Translations under genes and position numbers: made by a program
Virus record (IMG/VR): IMGVR_UViG_3300013306_000018
Span: 1 to 59,704 of that record
From: a virus
Reading direction: 5' to 3' (one strand)
DNA: 59,704 bases
Shown: positions 1 to 59,704 of the stretch, piece after piece
Numbering within the stretch: the stretch's first letter is position 1
Layout of the letters: each line of letters starts with the position of its first letter
Notes under the pieces: generated by a model
What the model was told of the DNA's origin: nothing
What the model saw: the letters and a program-made list of their open reading frames with translations, nothing else
The model's database searches: none

Positions 1-11
1 GGTGCAGAGAA
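1..11. repeat. Terminal 11-base overlap (copy of 59694-59704)
   Basis: Same 11 bases as the window end; see the entry at 59694. In the circle only one copy exists. Confidence 0.93.
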
Positions 12-1341
12 GGTGTTCCTGCCCAACGAGATGTATTTGTTCTACCCCGGCTTGAAGCGGGAAATGAACGACGAAGGATACGATGAGATAACATACAAAG
101 GCACGCACGGGGGTAGGGTTAAACTGTATGGTGCTAAATTTTGCCTTGGTGCCGGTACTAACGTGCTAACAAGCCGGGGATGGGTTCCTATAGTTGAAAT
201 ATCATCTACTGATCTCCTGTGGGATGGCGACGAGTGGGTATCACACCACGGGGTTATTTGTAATGGGCGAGCTTCGACTATTACCGTAGATGGCGTCAAG
301 ATGACGGCTGACCATAAAGTCATGACAACATATGGGTGGCAGCATGGGAAAACCTGCGAAGGATATAACCGGGCTCCGGTTTGGGTACCTGACCGCTACG
401 CGGCGCGTTGGGTCAGTCGAGACGGGGCGTGGTTTGAAGCCGATGTGGGAGATACGCTGCGATTGCGGCAGGTTAATCCAGATGAACTCATCGGCCTATT
501 GCCGAGGCACGCAGAAGTCATGCGGGTGCCGCCGGTACGAGATGATCGGCGATGCCAACCGGACGCATGGGATGTCGAAGCACCCAGCCTACGCAGTATG
601 GCGATCGATGCTGGACCGTTGCCGGCTACCGACGCATCAAGCCTGGGCCAACTACGGGGGGCGGGGGATTACAGTTTGTTCAGAGTGGCAGTCGTTCGAG
701 ACGTTCTGGGCCGACATGGGTCCGACGTACCGACGCGGCTTGACGCTAGAGCGCAAGGACAACGAGGGTGGGTATTCGGCGGTAAATTGCGAGTGGGCGA
801 CGTACCGCAAGCAGATGAACAACAAGCGGGGCAACGTGTGGATCGAGACACCGCTTGGGGTAATGACTGTGGCCGAGGCATCGCGGCTGAGCGGCATCGG
901 CCACACAACTCTGCTGTACCGCATCGCGCACGGAGTGAGCCTGTCTACGATATTATCAACGCCGGACCTAGGAACCGCTTTGTCGTCGCGGGAACCGATG
1001 GGCCGTTCATAGTCCACAACTGTGAGAACCTCAGCCAAGCCCTCTCGCGGATCATCATTACGGATATCGCCGTGCGGGTATACGTCGAGACGGGTTATCA
1101 CCCATACCTCTCGACGCACGATAGCTTGGACTACTGCGTGCCGGTGGACGAGGTCGAAGCGTGGGACGAGCTGCTCGCAGCGGAGTTTGCCATAGTGCCA
1201 ACCTGGGCGCAGGCCAGGGAGGGGGAAGCAAAGAAAGTTATGGGGCAGCTGGTGGTGGAGCAAACCCTACCGCTACCGCTCGCCAGTGAGGGGGGATGGG
1301 GCAGGAACCTGTTAGCTGCGGAGCGCGGGGAGAACCGCTGA
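1..1341 (+). CDS. polA: DNA polymerase I family, C-terminal part, interrupted by an intein
   Basis: Continuation of the polymerase that starts at 58212. The N-extein ends ...KLYGAKF and the C-extein resumes CENLSQALSRIIITD, a typical sequence between polymerase motifs B and C. Motif C is THDSLDYCVP, with HDS where many family members have HDE. Between the exteins, in frame, lies a 293-residue intein (142-1020). The stop codon at 1339-1341 overlaps the next ATG as TGATG. The intein sits in a conserved part of the fingers/palm, so splicing should be needed for activity. This is inference from position. Confidence 0.95.
   Translation, partial: GAEKVFLPNEMYLFYPGLKREMNDEGYDEITYKGTHGGRVKLYGAKFCLGAGTNVLTSRGWVPIVEISSTDLLWDGDEWVSHHGVICNGRASTITVDGVKMTADHKVMTTYGWQHGKTCEGYNRAPVWVPDRYAARWVSRDGAWFEADVGDTLRLRQVNPDELIGLLPRHAEVMRVPPVRDDRRCQPDAWDVEAPSLRSMAIDAGPLPATDASSLGQLRGAGDYSLFRVAVVRDVLGRHGSDVPTRLDARAQGQRGWVFGGKLRVGDVPQADEQQAGQRVDRDTAWGNDCGRGIAAERHRPHNSAVPHRARSEPVYDIINAGPRNRFVVAGTDGPFIVHNCENLSQALSRIIITDIAVRVYVETGYHPYLSTHDSLDYCVPVDEVEAWDELLAAEFAIVPTWAQAREGEAKKVMGQLVVEQTLPLPLASEGGWGRNLLAAERGENR
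142..1020 (+). mobile_element. Intein in DNA polymerase (Hint protein-splicing element)
   Basis: The 293-residue element starts with Cys1 (codon 142-144) and ends with Asn (1018-1020), followed by Cys+1 of the extein. Block A is CLGAGTNVLTSRGWVPI. Block B is VKMTADHKVMTTYGW, with the TxxH histidine. Block F is VYDIINAGPRNRFVV and block G is FIVHNC, so every residue needed for class 1 splicing is present. About 190 residues between blocks B and F have no recognisable domain in this frame, have low-complexity Arg/Asp-rich composition, and contain no stop. The same DNA encodes an HNH endonuclease in the +2 frame. Other inteins carry their endonuclease in frame; this one does not. Confidence 0.93.
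344..1012 (+). CDS. HNH homing endonuclease nested out of frame inside the intein
   Basis: A full-length phage HNH-family protein of 222 residues. The N-terminal module (DITGLRFGYL, then CDCG and KSCGC) is a zinc-binding region typical of these proteins. The core is YGGRGITVCSEWQSFETF, then LERKDNEGGYSAVNCEWAT. A C-terminal helix-turn-helix (MTVAEASRLSGIGHTTLLYRI) follows. It reads in the frame one base on from the intein. ATG 344 has a weak GGGTGG upstream; ATG 332 is the alternative. The stop TAG (1010-1012) lies within intein block G. The product would be a free-standing nuclease promoting intein spread, made by internal initiation; that role is inferred. Confidence 0.88.
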   Translation: MGKPAKDITGLRFGYLTATRRVGSVETGRGLKPMWEIRCDCGRLIQMNSSAYCRGTQKSCGCRRYEMIGDANRTHGMSKHPAYAVWRSMLDRCRLPTHQAWANYGGRGITVCSEWQSFETFWADMGPTYRRGLTLERKDNEGGYSAVNCEWATYRKQMNNKRGNVWIETPLGVMTVAEASRLSGIGHTTLLYRIAHGVSLSTILSTPDLGTALSSREPMGRS

Positions 1342-57792: not shown

Positions 57793-58221
57793 GTGCAGGC
57801 TGCACATAGAGAACGCCACGGCATGTCGTTCGTAGACGGTAGGCGCACGCGACTGCACTACCTCTGGATAAATATGCGGAACAAGTGCATCAATCCTAGG
57901 CACCCAGACTATCGCTACTATGGCGAGCGGGGCATCGAGGTTTGTGATCGCTGGGAGCTGTTCCGCCTCTTTGCCGCCGACGTGGGACCGCATCCCGGTC
58001 CCGGCTGGACGCTCGACCGGATCGACAACGATGGGCACTACGAGCCGGGCAGGCAGATGCAGGCGCGCAACCGCAACTATTGCAAGCTAACTAAGATTAA
58101 AGCAGACGAGATCCGAAACCTATATGTAAACCATCATATACGCCAAGTTGATCTGGCAAAATTATTTGGAGTAACGCAAGGACTAATCAGTCAGATTATT
58201 CGAGGTGTCGCATGGCAATAG
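57793..58221 (+). CDS. HNH-family protein with a deleted core, upstream of DNA polymerase
   Basis: 142 residues, GTG start after GGGAGGG. It aligns with the other two HNH proteins: YYGERGIEVCDRW, then LDRIDNDGHYEPG. The next segment, NCRWAT and adjoining residues, is missing and RQMQARNRNY follows directly. About eight residues that hold the last HNH element appear deleted in frame. The C-terminus keeps a helix-turn-helix (QVDLAKLFGVTQGLISQII). It may be an inactive nuclease kept as a DNA-binding protein. It overlaps the polymerase gene by 10 bases. Confidence 0.8.
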   Translation: MQAAHRERHGMSFVDGRRTRLHYLWINMRNKCINPRHPDYRYYGERGIEVCDRWELFRLFAADVGPHPGPGWTLDRIDNDGHYEPGRQMQARNRNYCKLTKIKADEIRNLYVNHHIRQVDLAKLFGVTQGLISQIIRGVAWQ

Positions 58222-59704
58222 TTACGTGTGATCTCGAAACGTTCTACGCGCGCGATTACACGCTGACGCGCATGACAACGGCCGAGTACAACCTCGATCC
58301 CCGGTTCCAGCCGCTGATGCTGTCCCTCAAGGTCGATGATGGTCCAACTGAGGTTCTCGTGGGCGACGCAGCGATCCGTTCTCGTCTTGTCCAGATCGAT
58401 CCCGATAAGACAGCGCTGCTGTCCCATCATATCAATTTCGACGGCTCGATCCTCTTCTGGCACTTTGGTTTCGCACCCAAGCTCTACCTCTGCACCTTGT
58501 CGATGGCTCGCGCCATCACCCACTGGGTCATCGGCAAATCCTCGCTCGCTGCCCTCTCGACCTACCTGCATCTCCCCCCCAAGGGCGATGAAGTGGTGCG
58601 GGCCCTGGGTAAGCGCCTGGAGAGTTTCACCAGTGACGAGCTGGCGGCATACGCGGACTATTGCGTGCGCGACTGCGACAACGCCCGCCTCGCGTTCGAT
58701 AAGCTCAGACCATACTTCACCAACGCCGAGCTGCAGCTCATCGACCTGATCGCGCGCATGTTCATCATGCCGCAGGTGAAGCTCAATGCCAGCGCGCTGG
58801 CGGTGCATCTTGGCGAGGTGCAGGCCCGCAAGGCCGAGGCGTTCGACCGGCTGGGCACCGTTGACCGGGAGATCTTTTCCTCGCAGCCCCGGTTCGCTGC
58901 CTACCTCGCAAGCTTGGGCGTCGAGGTGCCGCTGAAACCCTCCCCCACCGGTGAGGGGATGATCCCGGCGCTCGCCAAGGGAGACCGGGCGTTCAGGGAG
59001 ATGTGCGAAGATCCGAGCCTGCCGATGGACGTGCAGGTAGCGCTTGCCGTGCGCCTGGAGGCCAAGAGCACCATCGAGGAGACCAGGACGCAGCGCATGC
59101 TGACCCAGGCACGCCTGCGCTGGCCTGACGGCACCTATGGGCATCTCCCCGTCCCTCTGCGCTACTACGCCGCCAGGACCGGCCGGCTGGGCGGCGACGA
59201 CAAGCTGAACCTACAGAACCTGCCGCGCGGCTCCGCCATCCGCGCCGCCATCGAGGCGCCATCGGACCGCTACCGGCTGGTGCACCGCGACGCTTCCCAG
59301 ATCGAGGCCCGCATGGTGGCGTGGCTGGCGCAGGAGCCGGCGCTACTCGCCGCCTTTGCTGCAGGGGACGATGTCTACTCAGCCTATGCCAGCGACCTGT
59401 ACAGGCAGAAGGTCTCCAGGAGCGACACGTTGCGTCGCTTTGTCGGTAAGACCGCCATCCTGGGTCTGGGCTATGGCTGCGGCGCCGACAAGTTCCGGCA
59501 TATGCTGTTCATCGGCAACGGTGGTGTGTCGATGAAGGTCGAGACGGTCGAGGCGCAGACCATCGTCGACCACTATCGTGGTTTGTACCCGGCGATACCC
59601 AGGCTGTGGCGGTTTGGCAATAAGGTCATCGACAAGATACTGGAGCCTGACGATAAGCACGCACCGGAGAAATCGCACATACCCATATCGTATGGTGCAG
59701 AGAA
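58212..59704 (+). CDS. polA: DNA polymerase I family, N-terminal part (gene continues at base 1)
   Basis: This is the replicative family A DNA polymerase of the phage, N-terminal 494 residues before the window junction. A 3'-5' exonuclease domain comes first: D7 and E9 in CDLETF (Exo I), then NFDGSI (Exo II) and YCVRD (Exo III). The polymerase domain follows, with motif A as DASQIEARM and motif B around RRFVGKTAILGLGYG. The ATG at 58212 has GAGGTG upstream and overlaps the end of the HNH-family gene before it by 10 bases. The extein total, joined to bases 1-141 and 1021-1341 without the intein, is about 647 residues. That is somewhat shorter than T7 DNA polymerase and normal for phage enzymes. 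Confidence 0.96.
   Translation, partial: MAIVTCDLETFYARDYTLTRMTTAEYNLDPRFQPLMLSLKVDDGPTEVLVGDAAIRSRLVQIDPDKTALLSHHINFDGSILFWHFGFAPKLYLCTLSMARAITHWVIGKSSLAALSTYLHLPPKGDEVVRALGKRLESFTSDELAAYADYCVRDCDNARLAFDKLRPYFTNAELQLIDLIARMFIMPQVKLNASALAVHLGEVQARKAEAFDRLGTVDREIFSSQPRFAAYLASLGVEVPLKPSPTGEGMIPALAKGDRAFREMCEDPSLPMDVQVALAVRLEAKSTIEETRTQRMLTQARLRWPDGTYGHLPVPLRYYAARTGRLGGDDKLNLQNLPRGSAIRAAIEAPSDRYRLVHRDASQIEARMVAWLAQEPALLAAFAAGDDVYSAYASDLYRQKVSRSDTLRRFVGKTAILGLGYGCGADKFRHMLFIGNGGVSMKVETVEAQTIVDHYRGLYPAIPRLWRFGNKVIDKILEPDDKHAPEKSHIPISYGAE
59694..59704. repeat. Terminal 11-base overlap (copy of 1-11)
   Basis: The last 11 bases, GGTGCAGAGAA, are identical to bases 1-11. With one copy removed, DNA polymerase continues in frame as ...SYGAEKVFLPNEMYL.... 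With both copies kept, the frame is broken. The repeat is therefore best read as the overlap of a circular assembly, not as a biological terminal repeat. Confidence 0.93.

Follow-up and report, generated by a model that had tools for sequence, protein, structure and literature searches.

A mini-intein of a phage family A DNA polymerase that probably hosts an out-of-frame homing-endonuclease gene

The window, the whole stretch of viral DNA analysed here (59,704 nucleotides), encodes a family A DNA polymerase interrupted by an element that is best read, with a probability of roughly 0.8, as a mini-intein hosting an out-of-frame homing-endonuclease gene. The intein would be mobile, and its linker would house the nuclease gene in the +1 frame rather than as an in-frame fusion. 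Ribosomes translating the polymerase would pass through the disordered linker without a break and, as the anatomy of the element suggests, the splicing blocks would fold together, cut out the inserted segment and ligate the flanking polymerase parts. Other ribosomes would initiate within the intein, at a start codon right after block B, and yield a free HNH protein; this protein may cut intein-free polymerase alleles, whose repair would copy the intein and the nuclease gene jointly. The nested layout is a real, widespread and largely unremarked architecture.

The intein and the nested HNH protein

The host gene is a family A DNA polymerase, the C-terminal part of which lies on the base 1 side of the window, where frame 1 is free of stops from base 1 to base 1341. 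The ends of the circularly permuted contig overlap by 11 bp, and the gene runs on from 59704 to base 1; the N-terminal half of the polymerase (N-extein; 58212–59704, plus strand; ORF 58212–59702) is colinear with that of the relative L002 at 96% identity. The polymerase gene of L002 is whole, comprising a full N-terminus and an identical copy of the part on the base 1 side of the window. The window polymerase is complete, not truncated. In alignment A1, the final part of the N-extein (1–141, plus strand) ends in ..VKLYGAKF, while the C-extein (1021–1341, plus strand) contains polymerase motif C (THDSLD).

The intein (142–1020, plus strand; 293 aa) begins with Cys1 (142–144), contains the motif TxxH (threonine at 304–306, histidine at 313–315) and ends in His-Asn (1015–1020), followed by Cys+1 (1021–1023). 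A preliminary description of this DNA had claimed a complete intein at 142–1020 with blocks A, B, F and G and these residues, and its coordinates are right. By its first residue, TxxH and the His-Asn end before cysteine, the sequence can be assigned to class 1 inteins, and the predicted model has the HINT fold; as the ORF is continuous, it is not a split intein. The residues C1, T55, H58, H292 and N293 are invariant in alignment A3 of 55 intein-frame sequences, and the +1 residue is cysteine across the family (serine in L024). A profile built from the 55 sequences matches only inteins among solved structures (PI-MtuI and NEQ068), and the top Foldseek matches of the model are mini-inteins (probability 1.00, best E 1.3e-3).

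AlphaFold models the intein frame confidently at residues 1–70 and approximately 264–293, with disorder in most of the middle. The N-terminal splicing block (blocks A and B) with the linker start occupies 142–423 (plus strand; residues 1–70 modelled, pLDDT >90), while the C-terminal splicing blocks F and G occupy 934–1020 (plus strand; pLDDT 85–97). Between them, the linker (424–933, plus strand) has no predicted structure (pLDDT mostly <50). Neither the domain-profile search nor the model revealed a known domain in it, as had been claimed, and the window has no endonuclease domain in the frame of the intein itself, the HNH sequence sitting in the +1 frame. Searches of Pfam and NCBIfam at normal thresholds detected neither the intein nor the HNH core.

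The second ORF (332–1012) lies in the +1 frame, and its likeliest start is ATG 344, giving a nested HNH protein of 222 aa (344–1012, plus strand; alternative start ATG 332) that is predicted to be well folded (mean pLDDT 88.5). It contains a zinc module (CxC...CGC; 455–532, plus strand), in which C39, C41 and C62 are invariant and C60 is nearly so, an HNH core (LTLERKDNEGGYSAVNCEWATYRKQMNN; 740–823, plus strand) aligned to residues 65–116 of I-HmuI, and a C-terminal helix-turn-helix (869–928, plus strand) identified by the domain search and the model. The earlier claim of a full HNH protein at 344–1012 with these three parts is borne out by the match of the window HNH to PHROG_374 'HNH endonuclease' (E 6e-54) and by the match of an HNH-frame profile (54 sequences) to the I-HmuI core (E 0.002). 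All 54 nested HNH members match PHROG HNH families, and the nested protein is thus assigned by sequence to an HNH family. As Foldseek gave no confident whole-protein match for the HNH model in the PDB (best E 0.4; PacI HNH at rank 23), the HNH identity rests on sequence profiles. The first histidine of the I-HmuI-type core aligns to arginine (R137) family-wide, and likewise in free-standing relatives, so that cutting by the nested protein is not assured.

Use of the two reading frames

The second ORF cannot be put down to chance, which is ruled out by synonymous shuffling and by the free-standing relatives. When the nested HNH genes of 95 loci were shuffled synonymously, 565 stops were expected in the intein frame and none was observed; for the window alone, the intein frame stays stop-free in 0.6% of the shuffles, in keeping with the earlier estimate of below 1%. 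The third frame is open in none of the 95 nested loci, and a search from the HNH side gave 116 free-standing relatives, each of which has both alternate frames closed (median 9 and 15 stops). The helicase intein of a Jerseyvirus (L025), used as an internal control, has a canonical in-frame endonuclease and stops throughout both other frames.

Codon-position analysis of 37 disjoint pairs separates the two frames. Substitutions in the HNH frame of the window's class fall on codon positions 1/2/3 at 0.26/0.22/0.51, and when these bases are assigned to codons of the intein frame, the pattern is reversed (0.50/0.26/0.24). The N and C splicing blocks have the substitution pattern of ordinary coding sequence. 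Within the overlap, intein residues are replaced by HNH-synonymous changes at the expected frequency and radicality, stops alone being avoided, and a test through these changes found the linker protein to be free of purifying selection. Such selection acts on the HNH frame, while the overlapped linker is merely kept stop-free, avoidance of stops being its sole constraint. These substitution patterns and the avoidance of stops alone describe an asymmetric overlap, in which a selected nuclease gene lies over an indifferent open linker. The preliminary description had held that the overlap constrains both products and had suggested checking the second frame for conservation and purifying selection: the HNH frame proves to be conserved and selected, whereas the linker is held only to being stop-free.

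The nested HNH protein is probably made by internal initiation. Its putative start codon, located after block B, takes one of a few set positions (187/190, 202/205 or 220/223 nt from Cys1), the window belonging to the 202 group. Pairing with the 16S tail upstream of the start exceeds the prediction from synonymous intein codons (p 4e-7 for 187/190 and 4e-4 for 202/205, optimistic values because the loci are related), and the signal in the 187/190 group is GAGGTA, located within block B codons. In the window, the ribosome-binding-like sequence GGGTGG (334–339, plus strand) is weak and not significant by itself (P 0.20), the enrichment being family-wide. Internal initiation, proposed earlier for this DNA, is therefore favoured by the conserved start and the family signal, though hardly by the signal of the window itself.

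Distribution, movement and loss of the element

Nesting with both frames open occurs in 95 intein loci, 74 of the window's class and 21 of a second class. The HNH frame is +1 relative to the intein in each of the 74; in the second class it is +2 in 19 and +1 in two, L058 and L060, which were assigned by the second-class profile. The initial search found L002 and 15 further relatives; the HNH is retained in 14 of the latter, always at +1 with the intein frame open. The broader search comprised 80 loci, which after removal of duplicates gave 75 inteins of the window's class with HNH at +1, including L098, later found to be split. As the loci were picked by similarity to the intein frame of the window, the prevalence of the arrangement among all inteins is not derivable from them. 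The +1 arrangement is kept at protein identities down to 28–35%, which upholds the earlier proposal that one DNA stretch encodes both intein and HNH protein.

Inteins of the window's class are inserted at slightly different points, a few codons apart, in the motif YGGKL^CENxxQA that precedes polymerase motif C, while the second-class site is polymerase motif B. Isolates carrying the window's class include the Caulobacter phages RW, RLK, KcrB and GB2A, Shewanella phage SFCi1 and the APSE phages, and +1 copies also occur on bacterial genome or MAG contigs labelled Oscillospiraceae, Selenomonadaceae, Spirochaetaceae and Sphingomonadaceae. The second class is carried by EBPR siphovirus 2, Pseudomonas phage MR14, Vibrio phage 97.13, Shigella phage EP23, Sodalis phage SO-1 and approximately 160 Salmonella and Escherichia phages. 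The same layout is thus present in well over 150 published phage genomes. Nested +1 HNH inteins were also seen in helicase-like and terminase-like genes (L094, L102, L105, L109 and L130); from their sequences, L094, L102 and L109 are provisionally placed in helicase-like genes and L105 in a probable terminase gene. As these hosts differ from the polymerase, the intein and the nuclease appear to travel jointly into new host genes. In a tree with 9 free-standing genes, both nested classes form separate groups with good support, and nesting therefore probably arose at least twice.

The homologous polymerase N-extein of the second class is found in 651 GenBank phages, and the second-class intein in only 166. 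A tract of approximately 2.0 kb around the intein (59045–59704 plus 1–1367) differs between the window and L002 by 1 mismatch, while the other compared sequence is approximately 5% different; the tract is possibly the trace of a recent co-conversion, and it could also reflect ordinary phage mosaicism. Together, the patchy distribution and the low-divergence tract fit homing without proving it. Directly 3' of the polymerase, the window has an 822-bp stretch (1368–2189) missing from L002, its closest relative, which holds much of a free-standing HNH gene (1812–2270) of the same broad family as the nested HNH. In Jerseyvirus and relatives, the match to many polymerases breaks off at query base 667 of 700, 33 nt short of the intein site, and in known intein carriers the match reaches the site; the site itself may not be the same in carriers and non-carriers.

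The intein can do without the HNH, as three loci keep an intein with the HNH lost or broken. Compared with L010, L016 lacks exactly 531 bp and with them most of the HNH, yet the intein frame is preserved and the sequence is otherwise 100% identical. Both loci come from one metagenome, however, and the apparent deletion could have arisen at a 4-bp repeat during assembly. In L080 the HNH is broken by a nonsense mutation and the intein is intact, and L129 is an intein without HNH. A broken HNH in an intact intein had been named beforehand as evidence against the arrangement; such cases do occur, yet they are what the homing cycle predicts. L010 (3265–3804) and L016 (5028–5567) also contain a short first intein with out-of-frame HNH remnants, which appears to be a decayed copy.

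Some relatives of the element are split. L098 (2537–3700) has a polA split intein with the HNH between the halves; the linker has five stops, the HNH is intact, and the start ATG of the C-half overlaps the HNH stop (ATGA). L061 (136–1150) and L104 (1575–2560) have a split intein at another polA site, again with the HNH between the halves, and in both the polymerase gene also contains a nested intein that is continuous. A three-frame layout, with IntN, HNH and IntC in different frames, is kept in 15 loci found from the L061 HNH (within L214–L232). In the tree, the split-intein loci of the L061 type form a clade adjoining the continuous +1 inteins, while L098 (as L133) is placed close to the window's class, though weakly supported there. 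Split inteins and broken-up polymerase genes may tentatively be traced to continuous inteins with an out-of-frame HNH, in which the nuclease already has a gene of its own and the linker can vary freely: a linker stop and a start near block F would turn a continuous nested intein into a split one. L098, with its linker stops, intact HNH and ATGA overlap, might then be a product of this route, which we consider possible but somewhat doubtful.

Alternative readings and known systems

Several other readings of the region were weighed. The HNH could be fused to the N-terminal block of the intein by programmed +1 frameshifting, without internal initiation, and the +1 relative frame fixed in 74 of 74 loci of the window's class agrees with this. 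However, the start varies among distinct positions (187, 190, 202, 205, 220 and 223 nt from Cys1), each with its own purine-rich upstream sequence, which makes frameshifting less likely; moreover, inspection by eye revealed no common slippery site, the HNH start is often closely preceded by an in-frame stop and the second class is at +2, so that we hold this reading to be rather improbable. A group I or II intron with an HNH ORF, spliced at the RNA level, would explain the label 'type I self-splicing intron' in the SO-1 record, and phage introns commonly hold nested HNH genes. Nevertheless, covariance models matched no intron family even at E 1 (L001, L022, L026, L018 and L019), the frame is open in 95 of 95 loci and ends in conserved intein residues, and the solved structures matched are inteins; for want of any covariance match up to E 1 an RNA intron is ruled out, and we give it next to no credence.

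Two further alternatives take the intein as given and doubt the nuclease. The element may be a decayed in-frame HNH intein in which indels shifted a now dead nuclease out of frame, and HNH decay is indeed present in the family (the nonsense mutation of L080 and the deletion of L016). However, none of 93 unique inteins has a genuine HNH in its own frame, the lone call (L027) being a frameshifted record, and purifying selection acts on the HNH frame and not on the linker; the codon-position pattern refutes decay for most members, which leaves this reading very improbable. In Salmonella phage SS3e, the source of L027, the polymerase is recorded as two genes around an HNH gene, probably owing to a frameshift in the record. 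Alternatively, the nested protein may be a DNA-binding or domesticated regulator in an immobile element, as the arginine in place of the first catalytic histidine and the C-terminal helix-turn-helix could suggest; against this, free-standing relatives annotated as HNH endonucleases have the same LDRxDN-type core and the distribution is patchy, and a regulator is considered unlikely. An assembly indel joining the two frames is ruled out, as nesting recurs in 95 loci of many different origins.

The textbook intein is a splicing domain fused to an endonuclease domain. The nested mini-intein shares with canonical large inteins (PI-SceI, PI-MtuI and L025) the blocks A, B, F and G and nuclease coding between blocks B and F, whereas their endonuclease is a fused in-frame domain. 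Dassa et al. reportedly described in 2009 'fractured genes', in which a free-standing endonuclease gene separates the two halves of a split intein; these likewise have a separate endonuclease protein encoded between intein halves, whereas the window intein is continuous and overlaps the gene, the split form being that of L098, L061 and L104. The HNH protein I-HmuI of a group I intron has a related core and is also nested in a splicing element, but its host element splices as RNA and that of the window as protein.

A close published parallel is the ShiLan domain of actinobacteriophage methylases, an insertion open in the host frame that contains an out-of-frame HNH gene, is patchily distributed and has been proposed to use internal initiation (PMC11855218). 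The nested mini-intein shares these four features; ShiLan, however, has no intein motifs and is thought to remain in the protein (PMC11855218), whereas the host element of the window is a complete intein. The Applejack phage methylase likewise has an out-of-frame HNH insertion (PMC12613952). GenBank annotates overlapping ORFs, without explaining the arrangement, in APSE-1 (P45/P46; AF157835/NC_000935) and Sodalis phage SO-1 (gp38/gp39), which have the same arrangement with homologous parts, P46 and gp39 being the nested ORFs; the APSE-1 HNH is annotated short (3563–3985 of L018), and the SO-1 record (L026) differs from our reading in labelling the region a group I intron. Ent3 is annotated as an intein only, and as most GenBank records seen with the nested element list 'DNA polymerase' alone, it is easily missed by annotation.

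In the published papers searched, no intein whose endonuclease lies out of frame is described. The earlier statement that no example had been described thus holds for an explanatory account, but not for annotation (APSE-1 and SO-1), and ShiLan provides a case without an intein. The main threat to novelty is a preprint by Gosselin et al. 2025 (10.1101/2025.01.02.630785), which may already describe such inteins; PMC11855218 cites it for overlapping frames in actinobacteriophages.

In the nested mini-intein, the nuclease is uncoupled from splicing, as one stretch of DNA encodes two proteins, one folded and selected and the other only kept open. The family is a natural overlapping-gene system comprising 95 examples, with free-standing genes as matched controls and with derivatives that lack the HNH, and it includes tractable isolates among Caulobacter and E. 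coli phages. It offers a natural design for placing a gene within a splicing linker, and would provide a testable route to split inteins, which are tools in wide use.
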